Source: Streptomyces sp. MST-110588
GTDB lineage: Bacteria; Actinomycetota; Actinomycetes; Streptomycetales; Streptomycetaceae
DNA: 64,000 bases
Assembly (NCBI RefSeq): GCF_022695595.1
Contig: NZ_CP074380.1
Location: 7,778,501 to 7,842,500, forward strand
Direction of reading: 5' to 3'
The translations under genes were made by a program, and so were the position numbers. The first letter of the stretch is position 1. The number at the start of each line of letters is the position of its first letter. The notes under the pieces were generated by a model. That model searched no databases, was not told where the DNA came from, and saw only the letters and a list, made by a program, of their open reading frames with translations. Below are positions 8,470 to 17,768 of the stretch, piece after piece.

Positions 8470-9930
8470 TCAGGCGGCTTCGGACAGCGCCCCTATCGTC
8501 GTTCCGCGCCGCTCGGCCCAGTTCTCCAGCGTCGTACGGCAGGCGTGGTCGAGATGGCGGAGCTGGGAGAGGTCGAGTTCCACGATCCGGTTGGGCGGAA
8601 GCGCTTCGAGCGTTTCCAGCATCCGGGGCAGGCGCAGGAAAGTCGCATAGCCGGTGATCGTGACGACGAGCCGGCCGTCGGAGGGTTCCTGGACGTCCAC
8701 GTGGATGTGAGAGGTCTCCCAGGCGATCTTGACGACGGCGAGGAGCAGGCCGAGGATGACGCCTTCGAACATGTTGGTGGTGACGATGGCGACAGCCGTC
8801 GCGGCCAGTACGACCACCTCACCGCGGTGGGCGCGCCACAGCGGCGGCAGTTCCTTGACCGGGATGAGCTTGCAGCCGGCGTGGACCAGGACACCGGCGA
8901 GGGCGGCCAGCGGGATGACACCGATCGCGGCCGGCAGGAGAGCGGCGAACAGCAGCAGCCACGCCCCGTGCAGGAAACGGGAGAGGGCGGTCTTCGCCCC
9001 GGCCTGGACATTGGCGGAGCTGCGGACGATGACGGCGGTCATGGGCAGCGCGCCGAGCACGCCGCAGACGGTGTTGCCCACGCCCTGCGCCATGAGTTCC
9101 TTGTCGTAGTCGGTACGCGGGCCGTCGTGCATACGGTCGACGGCGGCGGCACTGAACAGGCTCTCGGCCGAGGCGATCAGGGCGAAGGCGAGGACCGTGC
9201 CGACGGCGGCGAGGCTGGTCAGCGAGGCGAAGTCGGAGACCCCCGGCGGCTGGATCGCCGCCAGCAGACCCTGTACCCGGACCCGGGGAACGGCCAGGCC
9301 GGCCACGGCCGTCACAAGAGTGGCCAGGGCGACCGCGGCGAGCGGGGCGGGCACCACCTGGACCCTGCGCGGGAGTTTCTTCCACAGCACCAGGACCGCG
9401 ACGGTGCCGGCGCCCACGGCGAAGGCGGTGAGTGCGGCGCCGTCGGTGACGATCTCGGCGGCGAGCCGCGGCACGCCCGTGATCTTCTCCAGTCCGGAGC
9501 GGGACTGCGCGACACCGGCCATGGTGTAGAGCTGGCCGAAGAGCAGGACCAGTCCGATGCCGGCGAGCATGCCCTGGACGACGGCCACCGATATCGCGCG
9601 GAAGAAGCGGCCGAAGCGCAGGAAGCCCAGAGCCAGTTGGATCAGGCCCGCGGCCAGGACCAGCGCGCCGAGGGCCGTCAGGCCGAATTCCTGGACGGCC
9701 TCGAAGACCAGGACGGTCAGGCCGGCGGCCGGCCCGCTGACCTGGAGGGCGCTGCCGGGCATGGCGCCGACGACAAGACCGCCGACGATGCCGGTGATCA
9801 GGCCGAGTTCGGCGGGCACCCCCGAGGCGACGGCCACCCCCACGCACAAGGGCAGAGCCACCAGGAAGACGACGAGGGAGGCCAGGAGGTCGCGTCGCAG
9901 GAAAGCGCGATCCTTGAAAGCGGAGAGCAT
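8470..9930 (-). CDS. SulP-family inorganic anion transporter
   Basis: 486 residues starting MLSAFKDRAFLRRDLLAS. It is a multi-pass SulP/SLC26 protein: LVALPLCVGVAVASGVPAELGLITGIVGG near the N-terminus, SGPAAGLTVLVFEAV, then ALIASAESLFSAAAVDRM and GALPMTAVIVRSSANVQAGAKT, the family core motifs. A C-terminal STAS domain follows (HVDVQEPSDGRLVVTITG to RIVELDLSQLRHLDH). It lies 68 bp behind a beta-carbonic anhydrase gene on the same strand. That pairing is typical of SulP proteins that take up bicarbonate, so bicarbonate is the likely substrate. Sulfate remains possible. Confidence 0.9.
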   Translation of the reverse strand: MLSAFKDRAFLRRDLLASLVVFLVALPLCVGVAVASGVPAELGLITGIVGGLVVGAMPGSALQVSGPAAGLTVLVFEAVQEFGLTALGALVLAAGLIQLALGFLRFGRFFRAISVAVVQGMLAGIGLVLLFGQLYTMAGVAQSRSGLEKITGVPRLAAEIVTDGAALTAFAVGAGTVAVLVLWKKLPRRVQVVPAPLAAVALATLVTAVAGLAVPRVRVQGLLAAIQPPGVSDFASLTSLAAVGTVLAFALIASAESLFSAAAVDRMHDGPRTDYDKELMAQGVGNTVCGVLGALPMTAVIVRSSANVQAGAKTALSRFLHGAWLLLFAALLPAAIGVIPLAALAGVLVHAGCKLIPVKELPPLWRAHRGEVVVLAATAVAIVTTNMFEGVILGLLLAVVKIAWETSHIHVDVQEPSDGRLVVTITGYATFLRLPRMLETLEALPPNRIVELDLSQLRHLDHACRTTLENWAERRGTTIGALSEAA

Positions 9931-9998: not shown

Positions 9999-10657
9999 TC
10001 ACAGCGGCCGGAATCGCGCGTCGTCGGCCCGGTACTCGCTGACTTCGCCGGTGTGGACCTCGTAGTACCAGGCGTGCACCGACAGGGTTCCTTCCGCGAC
10101 CCGTTCCGCCACGCAGGGATGGGTGCCGAGCCGCTCCAACTGGGCCACCGCGTGCCGCTGCACCGCCTGTGCCAGGTCCGGGAGGTGGGAGGAGGCCGGG
10201 GAGGTGAGGGTGGCGGAGACGGACGAGGCGGACGAGGCGGCGGGGGAGTGCGGGGCCAGGGCCTGCGCGGACCGTGGCACCGCCCGTTCGAGCCAGCCGC
10301 GCACCGCCGGCGCGGCGGACAGGTCGTCCCCCGGACCAGAGCGCTGACCGCACCGCAGTGGGAGTGGCCGCACACGATGACGTCGCGGACGCCCAGTACC
10401 CGTACCGCGTACTCGATGGTGGCCGTCTCGCCCGTGGGGTGGTCGCTGCGGTATTCGGGCACGATGTTCCCCGCCGTACGCAGCTCGAACAGCTCGCCCG
10501 GCCGCGCGCCGGTGATCAGGGACGGCACCACACGCGCGTCGGAGCACGTGATGAACAGGACTTCCGGGCACTGCCCGGCCGCGAAGGCCCGGAACTCCTC
10601 GGCCCGTCCGGCGACGTGCGTCGCGAAGGATCGTGCGTTGTCTACCAGAGACTTCAT
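9999..10657 (-). pseudogene. Beta-carbonic anhydrase, frameshifted
   Basis: The first frame (from ATG 10657) gives a beta-carbonic anhydrase with CSDARV (zinc Cys and the Asp-Arg dyad) and CGHSHCGAVSALV (zinc His and Cys). After the codons for SALVRG the frame is lost. The family continuation, DDLSAAPAVRGWLERAV to EVSEYRADDARFRPL, resumes in another frame. One G is missing in the G-run at 10328-10332. Either the gene is newly inactivated or the base is a sequencing or assembly loss. It would hydrate CO2 to bicarbonate for the SulP transporter encoded just downstream. Confidence 0.85.
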
Positions 10658-11114: not shown

Positions 11115-12602
11115 CTAGTGGTGCGAGCCGTGCCCGCTGACGCTCCCGTGGTCGTCCTCCGCCTCGCCGATTGCCTGCGCCGCCTCCAAGTGGGCCGGCA
11201 CGGCACGCGGTGGGGCGGCCAGGGCGAGAAGCGGTACGAGTGTGACCGCGAGCAGCCCGCCAGCGATCGCCAGTACGGAGTACCCGCCGGCCGCGACGAC
11301 CAGGCCCGACGCCATCCCCCCGGTGGCACCGGCGACCGACACGCCGACGTCGACCACGCCCTGGACGGCGGCGCGGGTGGCGAGCGGGACCGAGTCGGTG
11401 ACCATGGCCGTCCCGCTGACCAGCCCGAAGTTCCAGCCCAGGCCGAGGAGTACGAGCGCGGCGGCGAGGGCCGGGACCGAGTGCGCGGGAGCCAGGGCGG
11501 CGAGCAGGCCGGCGGCCAGAAGAACGACGCCGGACGCCGCCGCGACCCGCGTCCGGCCCAGGCGGTCGACGAGCAGGCCGGTGAGCGGGGAGGGCAGGAA
11601 CATCGCCCCTACGTGGAGGGCGATGACGAGACCGGCCGTGTGGGTGTCGTGTCCATGGGCGCGCATATGGACGGGGGTCATCGTCATGATCGCGATCATC
11701 ACGAGCTGGGTGAGGATCATCACCGTGGCGCCGATGACGACACCGCGCGGGCGGGCACGGCCTGTTGGGGCTTCCTCCGGGGGCGGAGGCGGGGGAGCGG
11801 AAGGGGGTGGCTGGGCCGCGGCCCGGGTACGTGCCAGGAGCAGGGGATCGGGACGCAGCAGGCACCACAGCACGGCGGCGGCGACCGCGTAGGCGACCGC
11901 GGCCAGTACGAACGGTCCCGCGAGCCGGGGCACGGCCCAGGAGTGCGCGAGGTCTCCCGTGACGCTCACGAGGTTGGGCCCGGCGACCGCGCCGAAGGTC
12001 GTGGCGAACAGGACGGTGCTCACCGCACGCCCGCGCCGGGCCGGCGAGGCCAGGTCGGCGCCCGCGTACCGGGCCAGCAGATTGGTCGCGGTGCCGGCCC
12101 CGTACACGAGGAGGGAGAGGAACAGCAGTGGTACGTCGCCCCGGGCGGCGGCCACGACGACGCCGAGGCTGCCGAGGGCGGCGGTGAGGTACCCCAGCGC
12201 GAGGCCGGGCCTGCGGCCCCACCGCTGACAGGTCCGGCCGATGCCGACGGCGCCCAGCGCGGCCCCGCCGGTGAACAGCGCGGCGGGCACACCGGCGAGA
12301 CCGGTCGAGCCGAGCATCTCCTCGGCGAGCAGCGCGCCGACGGTGATGCCCGCGGCGAGCCCCAGGCCGCTGAGGACCTGGGCGATCACCAGGACGGACA
12401 GCACCCTTTTCTGCTCGGGGGCCTCGGGCGGCTCGGGAGCCTCGGAAGGCTCGGGCGGCTCGGAAGCCTCCGGCGGCTCGGAAGGCTCGGGAGCGCCGCA
12501 CGCTGCCGGGGATTCGTCGGGACGCCGTGCGGGCCGTGTGGCCCGGGCGGCGCCGACGGGCCCGTCGCCGGTCCCCTTTCCGATGTTCCCGGGGCGCTTC
12601 AA
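11115..12602 (-). CDS. MFS exporter, last gene of the GCIS-peptide operon
   Basis: About 495 residues. A disordered N-terminal arm of about 50 residues ends in Glu/Pro/Ser repeats (EPSEPPEASEPPEPSEAPE), followed by a 12-helix MFS core (VLVIAQVLSGLGLAAGITVG; RRGRAVSTVLFATTFGAVAGPNLV; LLVDRLGRTRVAAASGVVLLA) and a His-rich tail (GSVSGHGSHH). No ATG or GTG exists between the previous gene and the homologous core. The TTG at 12602, four bases after GGAGG, is the best start. It lies 29 bp behind the GRDP-like gene, so it is co-transcribed. It probably exports the product of the operon. The His tail may bind metal, but this is unproven. Confidence 0.82.
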   Translation of the reverse strand: MKRPGNIGKGTGDGPVGAARATRPARRPDESPAACGAPEPSEPPEASEPPEPSEAPEPPEAPEQKRVLSVLVIAQVLSGLGLAAGITVGALLAEEMLGSTGLAGVPAALFTGGAALGAVGIGRTCQRWGRRPGLALGYLTAALGSLGVVVAAARGDVPLLFLSLLVYGAGTATNLLARYAGADLASPARRGRAVSTVLFATTFGAVAGPNLVSVTGDLAHSWAVPRLAGPFVLAAVAYAVAAAVLWCLLRPDPLLLARTRAAAQPPPSAPPPPPPEEAPTGRARPRGVVIGATVMILTQLVMIAIMTMTPVHMRAHGHDTHTAGLVIALHVGAMFLPSPLTGLLVDRLGRTRVAAASGVVLLAAGLLAALAPAHSVPALAAALVLLGLGWNFGLVSGTAMVTDSVPLATRAAVQGVVDVGVSVAGATGGMASGLVVAAGGYSVLAIAGGLLAVTLVPLLALAAPPRAVPAHLEAAQAIGEAEDDHGSVSGHGSHH

Positions 12603-12631
12603 GGAGCCTCCAAGAGGGATGCGCGGATTTC

Positions 12632-13210
12632 TTATGCCGCGCCCAGCGGTTCGAGTGCCGAGATCTCCTCCAGCGTCAGATCCATCTGGTGGTGGAGGAA
12701 GCGTACGATCGTCCAGTGCGGCAGCGCGCCCTCGTCGAACGGGCCGAATTCCCGGCAGTACAGCGGAACCCAGCGCAGCGCCTCTTCGGCCGCCTGCTCC
12801 CGGCCGGGTTCGCGCTGGTATTCCTCGTACGCGATGCTCCGGTGCTCGACGAAGAACCGGCCCGGCAGCCGTTGTTCGCACAGGGCGCGGTATTCACGCG
12901 TCTGGAGAATGAGATAGTGCCAGATCTCGTCGATCTCCTGTTCCACGGGCAGGAAGAGACCGCTGAGCCGGTCGCGGTACTTCGATACGAGGTACAGGTA
13001 CCGCAGGCATTCGAGGACCTGGCGCTCGACGAATTGCCGTGCCGTGTCCGTATCCGTATCCGTGTCCGTGTCCGGGGCGTCGGCGGAGGGGGAACTACGC
13101 CGTCCGCCGGCGGCGTTCGCGGTGAAATGTGTGACCACTTCGGCGTGGAGTGCCTCGCCGAGCAGTTCCTTGAGGTCGTCGGCGGACACGTAAGACTGTG
13201 CGGTCGTCAT
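12632..13210 (-). CDS. GRDP-like (DUF1399-type) protein in the GCIS-peptide operon
   Basis: 192 residues. The core IDEIWHYLILQTREYRALC and FFVEHRSIAYEEYQR resembles the plant and bacterial glycine-rich-domain-containing-protein-like family, whose signature is a VDxxWHxxL helix followed by a conserved Cys and His. The biochemical role of that family is unknown. Residues 46-57 are an expanded TDTDTDTDT run. It sits 57 bp behind the adenylate-forming enzyme and 29 bp before the exporter, so it is likely a tailoring or accessory protein of the peptide pathway. The family assignment is by motif only. Confidence 0.65.
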   Translation of the reverse strand: MTTAQSYVSADDLKELLGEALHAEVVTHFTANAAGGRRSSPSADAPDTDTDTDTDTARQFVERQVLECLRYLYLVSKYRDRLSGLFLPVEQEIDEIWHYLILQTREYRALCEQRLPGRFFVEHRSIAYEEYQREPGREQAAEEALRWVPLYCREFGPFDEGALPHWTIVRFLHHQMDLTLEEISALEPLGAA

Positions 13211-13267
13211 GGTTCTCCCGTGCAGGGGGCGGCGAGGCTGACGCCCGGCCCGTATGCGGACGGTGTG

Positions 13268-14506
13268 TCAGTGATCGGGCGCGAGCCAGGCGTATTTTCC
13301 GGACTTTCCGATGGGAAGGTGCGAGTGATGTTCCGACCGGCAGTGGCGCCCGGTCAGTTCGGCTACGGCGCGCTCCAGCCGGGCGGTCTCCGCGGCGCTC
13401 AGCGCGGCACCGTCGAAGGTGGTGTACCGCAGTTCGGCCTTCGCCTCGCCCGTCACCCGCAACTGGTGGACGAAGACGCGAGGGGAGACGCCGCCGAGGC
13501 AGTCGTCGAGATCGCCGTGGGCCACGGGGCCGTGCGGCGTGGCGAGCAACTCCTTCTCCCGGCCGCAGAACCGGGAGATCCGCTCCGGGTCCGGGGTCCC
13601 GTCCAGGGTGCGGACACAGTCCCCCGAGCGGTACCGGATCAGTGGCATGTACGGATTGCGCACACTGGTGACGATCAGGCTGAAGATACGGCTCCCCGGG
13701 GCGACCGGAAGGAGCTCGACGCTCATTCCGTCCAGATACGGGCGGTATCGCCCCTGCCGGTCGCTGTAGTACATGTAGCCGAGTTCGGTGCTGCCGAACA
13801 GGTCGATGATCGGGCACGCGAAGTGCTGTTGCAGAAAACGCCGGACGTTGACCGGGGTGTACTCGTACGCGTGGATGATGCTCGCCGGCGGCGGAAAGTC
13901 GTCCCACAGGCCCCACTGCGTGACTTTGCGTATCAGATGCGCCAAGTGGTAGCTGGAGCAGTCCAGGTGGTACCAGCCCTGCGGATGCGCCGCCCGGGCC
14001 GTCCGGATTTCGGCGAGCATCCGCTCGACGTCGGCCCGCTCCCACAGGGCCGGATCGAGCCGCAGATTGAGGTAGCGGGTGCGCGCGTCGAGCCGCCGTT
14101 CTTCCGGATCCGGTACGGGGTCCGGCTGCGCGCCGCGTTTCTTGGCGTTGACGCGGGCGACGTGTTCGGTGGCCAGCACCGTGGTCAGTGAGACGCGTTG
14201 GCAGTTCGCGTGCCAGGTCCCGGAGATGTCCGGGTGTTCGCTCCACAACCGGTAATAGGAATTGAGCAGGAAGTACGGGGGCCGGATGATCTGCATCCGG
14301 TCGTGGTGGGTGCCCGTGGACAGTACGAACTCCGCCTTGCCGGCCGCCAGTGCGTCGGCGAGCTCCGGCGTCATCCAGTTGTCGGGGAATCCGTGGGCTA
14401 TCTCCGGCTTTTCGAGTACGGGGAAGTGGCCCCGCTCGATCGACGTGCGGTAGATCGGTATGTTCTTGATCCGGTCGACGACCTCGGCCGTCGGCTGACC
14501 GTCCAT
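13268..14506 (-). CDS. PaaK-like adenylate-forming enzyme beside a Cys-repeat peptide gene
   Basis: 412 residues from the ATG at 14506, which has GAGGG five bases upstream (a GTG two codons earlier is possible). All adenylation core motifs are visible: P-loop-like STGT at 63-66, FGSTE at 237-241, RYRSGD at 291-296 (the Asp binds ribose hydroxyls), GREKEL at 315-320, and the C-terminal lysine region GKSGKY at 400-405. Similarity is to the phenylacetate-CoA ligase / coenzyme F390 synthetase branch, enzymes that activate carboxylates as acyl-AMP. The substrate is unknown. Its place as the first enzyme after the peptide gene suggests it activates a peptide carboxylate or a small acid that is joined to the peptide. 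Confidence 0.85.
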   Translation of the reverse strand: MDGQPTAEVVDRIKNIPIYRTSIERGHFPVLEKPEIAHGFPDNWMTPELADALAAGKAEFVLSTGTHHDRMQIIRPPYFLLNSYYRLWSEHPDISGTWHANCQRVSLTTVLATEHVARVNAKKRGAQPDPVPDPEERRLDARTRYLNLRLDPALWERADVERMLAEIRTARAAHPQGWYHLDCSSYHLAHLIRKVTQWGLWDDFPPPASIIHAYEYTPVNVRRFLQQHFACPIIDLFGSTELGYMYYSDRQGRYRPYLDGMSVELLPVAPGSRIFSLIVTSVRNPYMPLIRYRSGDCVRTLDGTPDPERISRFCGREKELLATPHGPVAHGDLDDCLGGVSPRVFVHQLRVTGEAKAELRYTTFDGAALSAAETARLERAVAELTGRHCRSEHHSHLPIGKSGKYAWLAPDH

Positions 14507-14542
14507 GGTCACCCTCTGAGCGTCAGGGGAAGAAGGAGTGGG

Positions 14543-14583
14543 GAGCGGGCCGGGAGTCCGGACGGATGTGTCCCGGCCCGCTC
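14543..14583 (-). terminator. Hairpin between peptide gene and first enzyme
   Basis: Perfect 13-bp inverted repeat, GAGCGGGCCGGGA (14543-14555) and TCCCGGCCCGCTC (14571-14583), with a 15-nt loop and no T-run. It stands between the peptide stop and the adenylase start. A leaky terminator or processing stem here would give more peptide than enzyme mRNA, as is common in RiPP operons. Confidence 0.6.
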
Positions 14584-14631
14584 GGGGTGTTCACTCGGTG
14601 GTTGTTCCGGAATCGAGGGATTCGGGAAACG

Positions 14632-14725
14632 GAGTCGGACTCGGAATGGGAGTCGGACTCGGAATGGGAGTCGGACTCGGACTCGGAATGGGACTTGGAG
14701 TCGGAGCAGGAGTCGTCGTCGGACT
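14632..14725. repeat. 18-bp tandem repeat in the peptide-adenylase spacer
   Basis: Two perfect units GAGTCGGACTCGGAATGG, then a partly expanded third and degenerate copies. Read on the minus strand it would extend an overlapping frame with PSPTPI units, but that frame has no good start codon. I treat the repeat as spacer DNA. Confidence 0.75.
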
Positions 14726-14748
14726 CGAAGGAACCGGCGGTTCAGAGG

Positions 14749-14904
14749 TCAGGAGATGCAGCCGGTCTTGGGTGCCGCACTGATGCAGCCCGCCTTGGGA
14801 GCCGCGCTGATACACCCGTCCTTGGCCGCCGCCTGCGCCGAGTTGACGGCGACCCAGTTCCGCCAGATGTCGTCCTGAGCCATCTTCTTGATCAGCTTTT
14901 CCAT
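14749..14904 (-). CDS. 51-aa candidate precursor peptide with three GCIS repeats
   Basis: A small gene starting MEKLIKKMAQDDIWRNWVAV. The first 27 or so residues form a charged, amphipathic leader-like helix. The C-terminus contains AAAKDGCIS, AAPKAGCIS and AAPKTGCIS in a row, with Cys at 31, 40 and 49, exactly nine residues apart, ending on Ser. Such a leader plus a repeated core is the hallmark of multi-core RiPP precursors. ATG 14904 has GGAGG six bases upstream and a strong promoter about 60 bp away. No lanthipeptide, YcaO or radical-SAM enzyme is next to it. The first enzyme is a PaaK-like adenylase. It is a product candidate, not a proven one. Confidence 0.8.
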   Translation of the reverse strand: MEKLIKKMAQDDIWRNWVAVNSAQAAAKDGCISAAPKAGCISAAPKTGCIS

Positions 14905-14964
14905 GGTGAACCTCCGAGAGGTGTCGTATGGGTGGGAGATCAGGTGGTGGTGTGACGCGTTCAG

Positions 14965-14994
14965 ACGGTAAAGTGAACACCAAGGATGTGTCAA
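14965..14994 (-). promoter_or_regulatory. Housekeeping-type promoter of the GCIS-peptide operon
   Basis: On the minus strand a consensus TTGACA (14994-14989), an 18-bp spacer, then TACCGT (14970-14965) fit a vegetative sigma promoter. Transcription would start near 14957, giving a leader of about 50 nt before the peptide ATG. Confidence 0.7.
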
Positions 14995-15045: not shown

Positions 15046-16395
15046 TCAGCCGCGCCCGGCTGTATCGCCGACGCGTCGGCCTTCGCCGGGCCGGGGCCCG
15101 GTGACCGGGATGGGAGCCAGCTTGCCGGAGCGGGCCAGAGCCGATACCGCGCCCGCGCAGACCAGCCCGGTGGCGCCGAGTACGGTCCAGGTCAGCCACC
15201 CGGCGTGGTGGGCACGGGCGAAGTCCCACAGGGCGCCGGTGGCCAGGTTGCCCACGGTGATGCCGAGCCCGGACACCGTGTTGTAGAGGCCGTAGTGAGT
15301 GGCGACCAGCTTTCCGCCGGAGAGGGAGACCACGGTGTCCATCTCCAGCGGATAGACCACCGCGCTGCCCGCGGCCAGCCCCACCACGGCCATCGCCAGG
15401 GCCGCCAGGTGCGCGGCGGTCCGCGGCGTACCGTCGGCGGCGGGGACGGCGATGGTGACCAGCGCGAGCGGGACGAATGCCAGACCCATGGCGGCCAGCC
15501 CGCGGACCATGGCCCGCGGGCCGCTCCAGCGCCGTCCGGCCCAGCCGGTCAGCCCTAGCTGCCCGGTCACCGCGACGCCGGCGGAGAGGACGAACAGGCC
15601 GCCGGTGGCCTTCGTGCCGTCGGTGCCGAGGGCGGCGTCGGCGGCCATGGGAAGGGCCAGGTAGACCTGGAAGGTCAGTACGTAGGAGCCGATCATCGCC
15701 ACCGAGAAGAGGAGGAACGGCCGGTTGGCCACCACCTGCCGCCACTGCCCCCACACCCGGTCCGCCGCCGCCGGCTCCCCGGCCCGGGCGCCGGCCCCGG
15801 CGCGGTTCCCGGCCTGTCGGCCGCCGCGGGCGGGCAGCGCCCGCCACTGGAGCACCGACAGTGCGGCGAAGACCGCCGCTGCCACCGTGCACACCAGCCG
15901 GAAGTCACCGGCCAGCAGGGCCAGCCCGACCAGCGGGCCGAGCAGCATTCCGGCCTGGTAGTAGACGTTGAAGGCGGCGAACGCCGCCACCCGTCGCTCG
16001 CCCGCCTCGACGGCCAGGTAGGCGCGTACGGCCGGGTTGAACAGGGCCCCGGCCAGCCCGGTGGCGGCCGACGCGACGATCAGGGCCGGCAGTTCGTCCA
16101 CCCAGCCCAGCAGGGCGAACCCGCCCGTACGCAGCAGGCACCCGGCCATGATCGGCGCCTTGTAGCCGTACCGGTCGGCGATCGTGCCCCCGACCAGGAA
16201 CATGCCCTGCTGGGACAGGTTGCGTATGCCCAGCACCAGTCCGACCGCCCACGCGGCCAGCCCCAGTTGGCCCGACAGATGCGCCGCCAGATAGGGCATG
16301 AGCATGTAGAAGGCGAGGTTGATGGAGAATTGGTTGGCCATCAGCATCTGCGCGGCGGGCGGGAAGGAGCGCGTGGTGCGCCACAGCGTCTTCAT
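15046..16395 (-). CDS. MFS transporter, coupled to the PLP enzyme gene
   Basis: 449 residues with 12 predicted membrane helices ([48 protein letters not shown], the MFS loop motif; [16 protein letters not shown]). A charged, repeat-containing central loop follows helix 6. The ATG overlaps the stop of the PLP gene as ATGA, so translation is coupled. It most likely exports the small molecule made by that enzyme. The fold is clear; the substrate is not. Confidence 0.85.
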
Positions 16396-17621
16396 CGGCC
16401 GCGCGCCTTCGCGCCCGCTCCCGCTCCTGGCCCTGCCCCTCTCCTCGGCCCCGCCCCTTCCTCTGCTCCCGCTCCCGCTTCCTCACCCGGTCCTGTTCCT
16501 GTTCCCGTCCCGGATTTTGGCCCCGGGCCGGCCGTCGGCCGCTCCCGTCCCCCGCCCGCAACCAGCGGATCGACCACCGTGGAGCAACGGGTCCACCGTG
16601 TCACCGTCTCCTGCGTCGGGTGGGCGATCTCCCGTGGCGCCTGCGGGGGCTGCCCGTCGAGCAACCGGTGCGCGCGGCACCAGTCGTCGTCGAACACGGT
16701 GCCGACGTAGCGCTGCGGGCCGTCGGGGAAGACCGCGGCGATCCGCGTCCTCGCCGGCAGGGTGGCCGCCAGGTGGCGGGCCGTCAGGGCGACCGCGCCC
16801 ACGCTCCAGCCACCGCTGGCGTAGCGTGCCCGGGCCAGCGCGCGGGCCGCCCACACCGCCTCGCCGGGGGCCACCCAGTGCACCTCGTCGAACAGCGCGT
16901 AATCCACGTTCCGGGGGTAGATGCTGCTGCCCAGCCCGCGCATCAGCCGGGGGGCCGCGGGCTGCCCGAAGACGGTTGAGCCGATCGCGTCCACGCCCAC
17001 CACCCGCAGGTGCGGGAAGTGCTTGCGCAGCACGCGTCCCACCCCGGCGGAATGTCCGCCGGTGCCCACGCTGACCACCAGGACGTCGATCCGTCCGAGC
17101 TGGGCGACCAGTTCGCGGGCCAGCGGCGCGTAGGCCGCCACGTTGTCGGGATTGTGGTACTGGTCCGGACACCAGGCGCCGGGGCGCTCGGCCAGCAGTC
17201 GCCCGACCAGCTCGCGGCGGGCCTGCTGCCAGCCGCCGACCGGATGCGGCGCGGACACCAGGTGCAGCTCGGCACCGTACGCTGCCAGCAGACCGCGCAT
17301 CAGCGGTTCCATGCCCGGGTCGGTGACCACCGCCAGCGGATGGCCGTAGGTGACCGCGGCCAGCGCCAGCCCCAGGCCCAGGGTGCCGGAGGTGGACTCC
17401 ACGATCGGCGCGCCGGGCAGCAGCAGACCGCGTTCGCGGGCCCGGGCGACCATGTACAGCGCGGTACGGTCCTTGATCCCGCCCGGGTTGTGCCCTTCCA
17501 GCTTGGCCCAGAAGCCGCGCCCGGCGGCGGTGAACGGCTCGCCGACCCACAGCAGCGGGGTGTCACCCACCAGGCCGGCCGGGGTACGGGAGGAGGGAAC
17601 GGTCGTGTCGAGAAAAGTCAT
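16392..17621 (-). CDS. PLP-dependent cysteine synthase-family (beta-replacement) enzyme
   Basis: 409 residues from ATG 17621 (GAGGAG eight bases upstream). It is a fold-type II PLP enzyme: GDTPLLWV near residue 20, NPGGIKDR with the PLP lysine at 50, substrate loop STSGT at 76-80, and phosphate-binding loop GTGGHSAG at 186-193. The usual Ser of NPGGSxKDR is missing and the phosphate loop has His in place of the usual Thr, so it is not a plain housekeeping CysK. The family exchanges the beta-substituent of serine or O-acetyl/phosphoserine. SbnA-like relatives make precursors such as diaminopropionate. The last 50 residues are a Gly/Pro/Ala repeat tail. Coupled to an MFS gene. Confidence 0.8.
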
Positions 17622-17768
17622 CGCGCGGAACTCCTCGTGGCCACCTGAGCGGTGGCCGCGTCGGTGAGCGGACGTGCGGACAGGACACGGCACGGCACCG
17701 CGTACGAGCCCCGCGCGACCACATGTGTGCCCACTCCGCGCGGACGCCTCACCGCGGTGCGGGGCCCG

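Follow-up and report, generated by a model that had tools for sequence, protein, structure and literature searches.

A putative RiPP-like operon pairing a repeat-bearing cysteine peptide with a PaaK-type ligase in Streptomyces

Results

We describe an operon of Streptomyces sp. MST-110588 that probably encodes a biosynthetic pathway resembling those of ribosomally synthesized and post-translationally modified peptides (RiPPs), of an undescribed class, in which a 51-residue peptide would be the precursor and a PaaK-type adenylate-forming ligase would modify its cores. We put the probability of this reading at roughly 70%. The operon lies in a 64,000-nt stretch of the chromosome (hereafter the window, G000:C1:7778501-7842500; genome of 7.9 Mb). 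Its four genes are all on the minus strand, in the order peptide (window positions 14749..14904), ligase (412 residues, 13268..14506, best start ATG at 14506), all-helical protein (192 residues, 12632..13210) and exporter of the major facilitator superfamily (MFS; 11115..12602, with a putative TTG start at 12602). The gap between the ligase and helical protein genes is 57 nt and that between the helical protein and MFS genes about 29 nt. An earlier interpretation made from the letters of the window alone (the sequence-only reading) had described a 51-residue peptide with Cys at positions 31, 40 and 49, a complete PaaK-type adenylase behind it on the same strand and an MFS exporter in the same operon. 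We recovered all three, the adenylase being constantly linked to the peptide and the exporter matching PF07690 at 4.7e-32.

The ligase was searched for in 295 Streptomyces genomes, taking full-length matches with E < 1e-180 as kin. Such kin were found in 36 of these sampled species genomes (~12%), and the next matches were generic and scored below 35 bits. Thirty loci fetched from the 36 positive genomes formed a first locus set. A second set consisted of the best 80 loci among 113 relatives found by scanning named genomes; the two sets partly overlap, and the ligase is present in all 80 by selection. Together with the window, the 80 loci provided 81 coding sequences and 79 distinct peptides. 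The peptide was encoded 5' of the ligase in 30/30 loci of the first set and, in the second, at every one of the 80 loci, in the same orientation as the ligase and 49-354 nt upstream of it. We also searched whole genomes with a peptide profile, using the 36 ligase-positive genomes and 36 negatives hand-picked from 259. Each positive genome had a match directly 5' of the ligase, and one negative genome (G003) had a match that we attribute to chance, as it lies out of frame inside a LysR-like gene (so called from its sequence). The co-occurrence check proposed in the sequence-only reading thus showed that peptide, adenylase and helical protein (79/80 loci) travel together, and no relative without the peptide was found among these loci and ligase-positive genomes.

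Conservation of the peptide

The window peptide consists of a leader, MEKLIKKMAQDDIWRNWVAVNSAQAAA, and three repeats: KDGCIS (residues 28-33; 14806..14823), KAGCIS (residues 37-42; 14779..14796) and KTGCIS (residues 46-51; 14752..14769), the last of which abuts the stop codon. Across the 81 coding sequences we counted 238 repeats that keep the Gly-Cys pair. The position two before Gly is Lys in 235 of them, Thr in two and Arg in one, and the pair is followed by Ile-Ser (225), Val-Ser (12) or Ile-Cys (1). The residue between Lys and Gly is variable (Ser, Asp, Ala, Thr, Asn, Glu and a few others), as are the linkers between repeats, which mostly span two to nine residues counting the Lys. Counting repeats that keep Gly-Cys, most peptides have three copies (68 peptides), with four in six and two in five. 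The repeats had been read from the window as AAPKxGCIS. The three Cys repeats stand, and the Cys pattern is retained in nearly all relatives; the AAP part varies, leaving K-x-G-C-[IV]-S as the conserved unit, in two to four copies with the Cys occasionally lost (GYIS in L044, GRAS in L052 and, in the first locus set, GRIS in L021).

The peptide ends on the Ser of a repeat, or on its decayed form, in 76 of 79 cases, and on Ser-Arg in the other three. These GCISR ends (L070, L094 and L099) would need trimming by one residue if the C-terminal Ser were the site of chemistry. The repeat Ser is kept across both of its codon families (158 AGY and 85 TCN codons). The leader shows a ratio of nonsynonymous to synonymous substitution rates of ~0.43 (1492 of 1500 sampled pairs), and its residues L3, W13, W16, N20 and S21 (A3 first-row numbering, without Met) are kept from Streptomyces to Paraburkholderia. 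Since the proteins encoded here are rich in Arg (188 Lys to 983 Arg in 24 ligases), the near-absolute Lys of the repeat points to a role for the amine itself or to a Lys-specific protease. These results bear out a leader followed by tandem cores, as in RiPP precursors. The locus also shows a general feature of RiPP systems: a precursor-like peptide encoded by a gene, its leader and core conserved, with a candidate enzyme for its modification alongside.

Among the matches listed, databases call the peptide "hypothetical" or "uncharacterized protein"; a single entry reads "linalool dehydratase/isomerase domain". A leader of the NHLP (nitrile hydratase leader peptide) type was considered and rejected, because the related profile TIGR04509 scored 13.1 bits against a cut-off of 34 and matched 2/32 members at E up to 1. 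We regard a weak match to the SicP family (E 0.001; 18.7 bits, cut-off 99) as fortuitous.

Expression signals

The promoter upstream of the peptide (14965..14994, minus strand) has the layout TTGACA-N18-TACCGT with CTTGG in the spacer. A layout of this type (TTGACA-N18-TACnTT-like, CTTGG-like spacer) was found in 69/81 loci, and both Paraburkholderia loci are among the 12 that lack an exact match; a slightly looser pattern occurred in 15 of 1600 random 300-nt windows. The promoter had been described as near-consensus. The layout holds, but a scan of the window promoter for consensus sigma-70 sites returned none, and the promoter is recognised through the comparison of loci. A GGAGG-like ribosome site precedes the start codon of 80/81 peptide genes.

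The gap between peptide and ligase, which measures 60-344 nt across the loci, contains in the window a strong hairpin (14543..14583, minus strand), a possible attenuator or mRNA stabiliser. Relative to 12 dinucleotide shuffles per locus, a 60-nt hairpin with z < -2 was found in this gap in 69/81 loci (median z -3.4). Such a structure would be in keeping with production of more precursor than enzyme, and a role in mRNA stability is equally possible. In the window, visual inspection of this 242-nt gap also showed short, imperfect tandem repeats (gagtcggactcggaatgg) at 14600-14720.

The ligase and its helical partner

The predicted model of the ligase has the two-domain fold of PaaK and the ANL superfamily of adenylate-forming enzymes. 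Motifs that we take to serve adenylation are conserved in 24 ligase sequences, with an invariant C-terminal Lys (K404). The fold resembles PaaK1, NatL2 and ClxA over nearly the whole length, and the adenylation motifs are shared with these enzymes, whose PDB entry titles indicate structures solved with small aromatic acids. AjiA1, ClxA and NatL2 are PaaK-type ligases of benzoxazole pathways. NatL2 is described as such in PMC7204872. The ligase studied here differs from PaaK-type ligases in its low identity to them (~14-19% in structural alignments), in having a ribosomal peptide gene as its partner and in staying below the curated cut-offs, such as that of the phenylacetate-CoA ligase PaaK family TIGR02155 (17.4 bits against 646.3).

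The helical protein is missing at a single locus (L100), where the contig ends. It is predicted to be all-alpha (predicted local distance difference test score, pLDDT, 83.5; predicted template modelling score 0.80), and its invariant residues include H98, C111, H123 and H165. The sequence-only reading had called it "GRDP-like". The gene is present, and the name is a database label (PF27765.1, precomputed); the window protein matched no family in the copy of Pfam-A used here. Searches of the PDB by sequence and by fold gave no match, which does not in itself make the fold new. In Streptomyces sp. WAC 01529 (L093), ligase and helical protein share one reading frame, and in L037, L042 and L076 their genes overlap.

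A homologue of the helical protein (E 2e-33) was found in an actinobacterial genome of another family (G828), after a 34-residue open reading frame (ORF; L150 7394-7498). The cluster (L150 7394-14161, plus strand) also contains an aminotransferase-like ORF (called from sequence), a flavin-dependent (FAD) monooxygenase, a MATE exporter and a radical S-adenosylmethionine (SAM) protein of the RiPP-maturation family TIGR03975 (613.7 bits, cut-off 281.85). A congener, G1089, keeps much of this set (L165 3359-10131, minus strand): identity is 82% for the helical protein, 85% for its radical SAM neighbour and 86% for the exporter; 29 of 34 residues of the short ORF are kept by hand count, and the aminotransferase-like ORF is kept as judged by eye. 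By gene content, this is a candidate RiPP-like cluster in two actinobacterial genomes. As the helical family accompanies two enzyme sets that are unrelated to each other, in each case next to a short ORF, it is likely a precursor-handling protein. More distant homologues (~21-46 bits) showed no RiPP-like setting in nine regions viewed by ORF starts, which indicates that the superfamily as a whole is not bound to RiPPs. Several of these homologues adjoin ORFs that we take to be helix-turn-helix-, DUF397- and kinase-like.

Exporter, distribution and neighbouring genes

The MFS type of the window was matched in 60/80 loci, in two of which (L077 and L091) it lies elsewhere; in L048 and L085 the match covers a short piece. 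A different MFS protein occupies the exporter position in L106, and an ORF of equal length does so in L110. In the rest of the 80-locus set, no kin of the window MFS adjoins the core.

The operon occurs in strains named S. griseus, S. rimosus and S. noursei. A ligase profile at 1e-30 matched the source genome alone among 396 genomes drawn phylum-wide, so its occurrences in Kitasatospora, Kutzneria and Paraburkholderia appear sporadic. The core was found in two Paraburkholderia species (L106 and L110) with ligases 65-66% identical, and this resemblance suggests transfer of the operon between phyla. An AraC-type regulator lies 5' of the core in L110.

Apart from the genes of the operon itself, the families recurring most often beside it were SulP anion transporters (45 loci) and carbonic anhydrases (36 loci), the next family reaching 15. 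In the window, these correspond to a SulP-family protein of 486 residues (8470..9930, minus strand) and a beta-carbonic anhydrase gene (9999..10657, minus strand), both names being our own presumed assignments. The carbonic anhydrase gene is split over two frames near 10340, which could mark a pseudogene, a frameshift or an error in the sequence. By direct search, one or both families lie within 8 kb in 52/80 loci (both in 45), and the 28 loci with neither include some cut by a contig end. The arrangement varies, with the genes downstream or upstream on the same strand or upstream or downstream on the opposite strand. Each family had a match in 72/72 genomes; presence alone is therefore meaningless and only repeated adjacency is informative. 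We built a tree of 65 SulP proteins by a quick method without bootstrap (44 adjacent copies, after dropping 3 of 47 as short, the window copy and 20 hand-picked non-adjacent copies). Adjacent copies did not form one group, and the non-adjacent label changed 10 times, at least 7 of these changes being forced by well-supported branches. Shuffled labels gave 17.4 changes, which indicates that much of the adjacency is inherited. Any one such adjacency could have arisen by accident, but its repetition speaks for a connection, which might run through bicarbonate, through zinc or through self-protection. A literature search aimed at this pair beside the operon listed no report.

The remaining recurrent neighbours occur in 9-15 of 80 loci each and are largely limited to two locus groups. 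Scans of ten representatives gave transporter, two-component, HypX-like and other household-type proteins, with two lacking a Pfam match. Given this content and the restriction to two groups, we regard these neighbours as shared gene order. One of them, a formyltransferase/enoyl-CoA-hydratase protein that we take to be HypX-like, is found in 12/80 loci, all of one group, 5' of the operon on the opposite strand (e.g., L107 7624-9429). Directly 5' of the operon in the window (15046-17693, minus strand) lie genes for an MdtH-like MFS protein and a cysteine-synthase/SbnA-like pyridoxal phosphate enzyme, overlapping by 4 nt. We rejected them as members of the system because the MFS protein recurred in 0/80 loci and the enzyme gave one weak match, in L080.

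Discussion

The sequences show a set of genes that are consistently kept and linked, a ligase with adenylation motifs and a predicted ANL fold, and one gene fusion; we infer from them that the peptide is the substrate, as well as all of the chemistry, cleavage and export of a pathway that would work like that of a RiPP. The ~27-residue leader of the ribosomal precursor would serve recognition, and its two to four K-x-G-C-[IV]-S units would be the cores. The ligase would use ATP to adenylate a carboxylate and then attach the resulting acyl group to the cores or within them. Its helical partner would act with it, most likely by binding the leader or presenting the cores. Host proteases may then free the repeated units, which the MFS protein would export. 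In one version of the chemistry, a common acid would acylate the fixed Lys, the Cys or the Ser. In another, the carboxylate of the C-terminal Ser would be adenylated and a ring closed, for instance onto the Lys of its own K-x-G-C-I-S unit. We saw no acid-making gene among the families recurring beside the core, which suggests that the acid is drawn from household metabolism or is the C-terminus of the peptide itself. A bolder proposal, which we consider unlikely, is that this is the first class with an ANL ligase, in which the C-terminal Ser of the released unit or the precursor is cyclised onto Lys to give small free-thiol macrolactams that bind zinc and act on carbonic anhydrase. The carbonic anhydrase and a bicarbonate-type SulP would then have been recruited several times as self-protection.

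Several observations weigh against a RiPP-like pathway. The product, the modification and the contact between peptide and enzyme are so far what we infer from the genes. The ligase falls far under every curated family cut-off, so its substrate cannot be read from its kin, and its model has pLDDT < 50 at residues 62-78, the phosphate-loop motif. In a few peptides one Cys is lost, and some repeats may therefore not be functional. Only one locus has the ligase fused to the helical protein, the window's type of exporter adjoins downstream in only 58/80 loci, and neither a protease nor a regulator is a recurrent member of the operon.

The Cys found in nearly every repeat, and a ligase fold shared with enzymes whose structures were solved with small aromatic acids, would also suit a carrier, on which the ligase loads a small acid onto the Cys thiols and the peptide is a disposable scaffold for an exported small molecule rather than the product. 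Tandem sites and a nearly fixed Lys exceed what a thiol carrier needs, however, and no further biosynthetic enzyme recurs across loci; we find this explanation improbable. Repeated Cys could also be read as metal handling, with a zinc-binding or thiol-signalling peptide, little or not modified, tied to the zinc enzyme carbonic anhydrase while the ligase performs a side task. The frequent proximity of carbonic anhydrase or SulP genes speaks for this possibility, but the peptide has only two to four Cys, one per repeat, and peptide and ligase were always together in the 72 genomes tested; we consider it highly unlikely. Finally, a short ORF followed by a strong hairpin before the ligase gene is what would be expected of a Cys-rich regulatory leader peptide whose translation controls the ligase, with the hairpin as attenuator. 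Conservation extends well beyond Cys codons, however, to W, N-S, K, G and S from Streptomyces to Paraburkholderia; Ser is kept through both AGY and TCN codons, and the ORF nearly always has its own ribosome site. We give this last explanation very little credence.

The absence of the usual RiPP maturation enzymes, as claimed in the sequence-only reading, held for the window and the recurrent neighbour families: no lanthipeptide, YcaO, radical SAM, lasso or graspetide enzyme was found among six window proteins scanned or the ten recurrent-neighbour representatives, rarer neighbours falling mostly outside the scan. Scans with PADLOC (defence), PHROGs (phage) and Rfam gave nothing usable. The operon fell into none of the known RiPP classes considered, and a RiPP-like class is the best reading. 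Overall, the leader and cores, the linkage and the lack of usual enzymes proposed from the window stand, with a different conserved unit, whereas the suggested activation of the peptide C-terminus or of a small acid by the adenylase stays a hypothesis; the fixed repeat Lys, the hairpin, the fusion and the carbonic anhydrase/SulP neighbours are additions of the present analysis.

Microviridin-type graspetides and cyanobactins are RiPPs with tandem cores, and the operon shares with them a leader and repeated cores beside an ATP-using enzyme and an exporter. It differs in that the ATP-using enzyme has an ANL/PaaK fold, not ATP-grasp or YcaO, and in having no recurring protease gene. PEARL (peptide aminoacyl-tRNA ligase) scaffolds reportedly involve ATP-linked chemistry on a small peptide, similar to what we propose. 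PEARLs are annotated as lantibiotic dehydratases in the account of PMC11212132, whereas the ligase of the operon is PaaK-like. The operon also resembles the candidate families of Streptomyces presented in the main text of decRiPPter (PMC7794033), which likewise belong to the accessory genome and combine a short precursor with unusual enzymes. The strict filter described there demanded a peptidase and a regulator, both of which the operon lacks, and the terms "phenylacetate" and "adenyl" are absent from that main text (PMC7794033; supplementary tables aside). A literature search aimed at the operon found no report, subscription papers being mostly outside its coverage.

To our knowledge, no enzyme of the ANL/PaaK fold has been described as defining a RiPP class. 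Should the ligase prove to act on the peptide, RiPP class enzymes would gain a new fold, and RiPP-like systems a helical partner with a homologue that points to another type of RiPP-like cluster; both the ligase and the helical protein could then be used as handles for genome mining.
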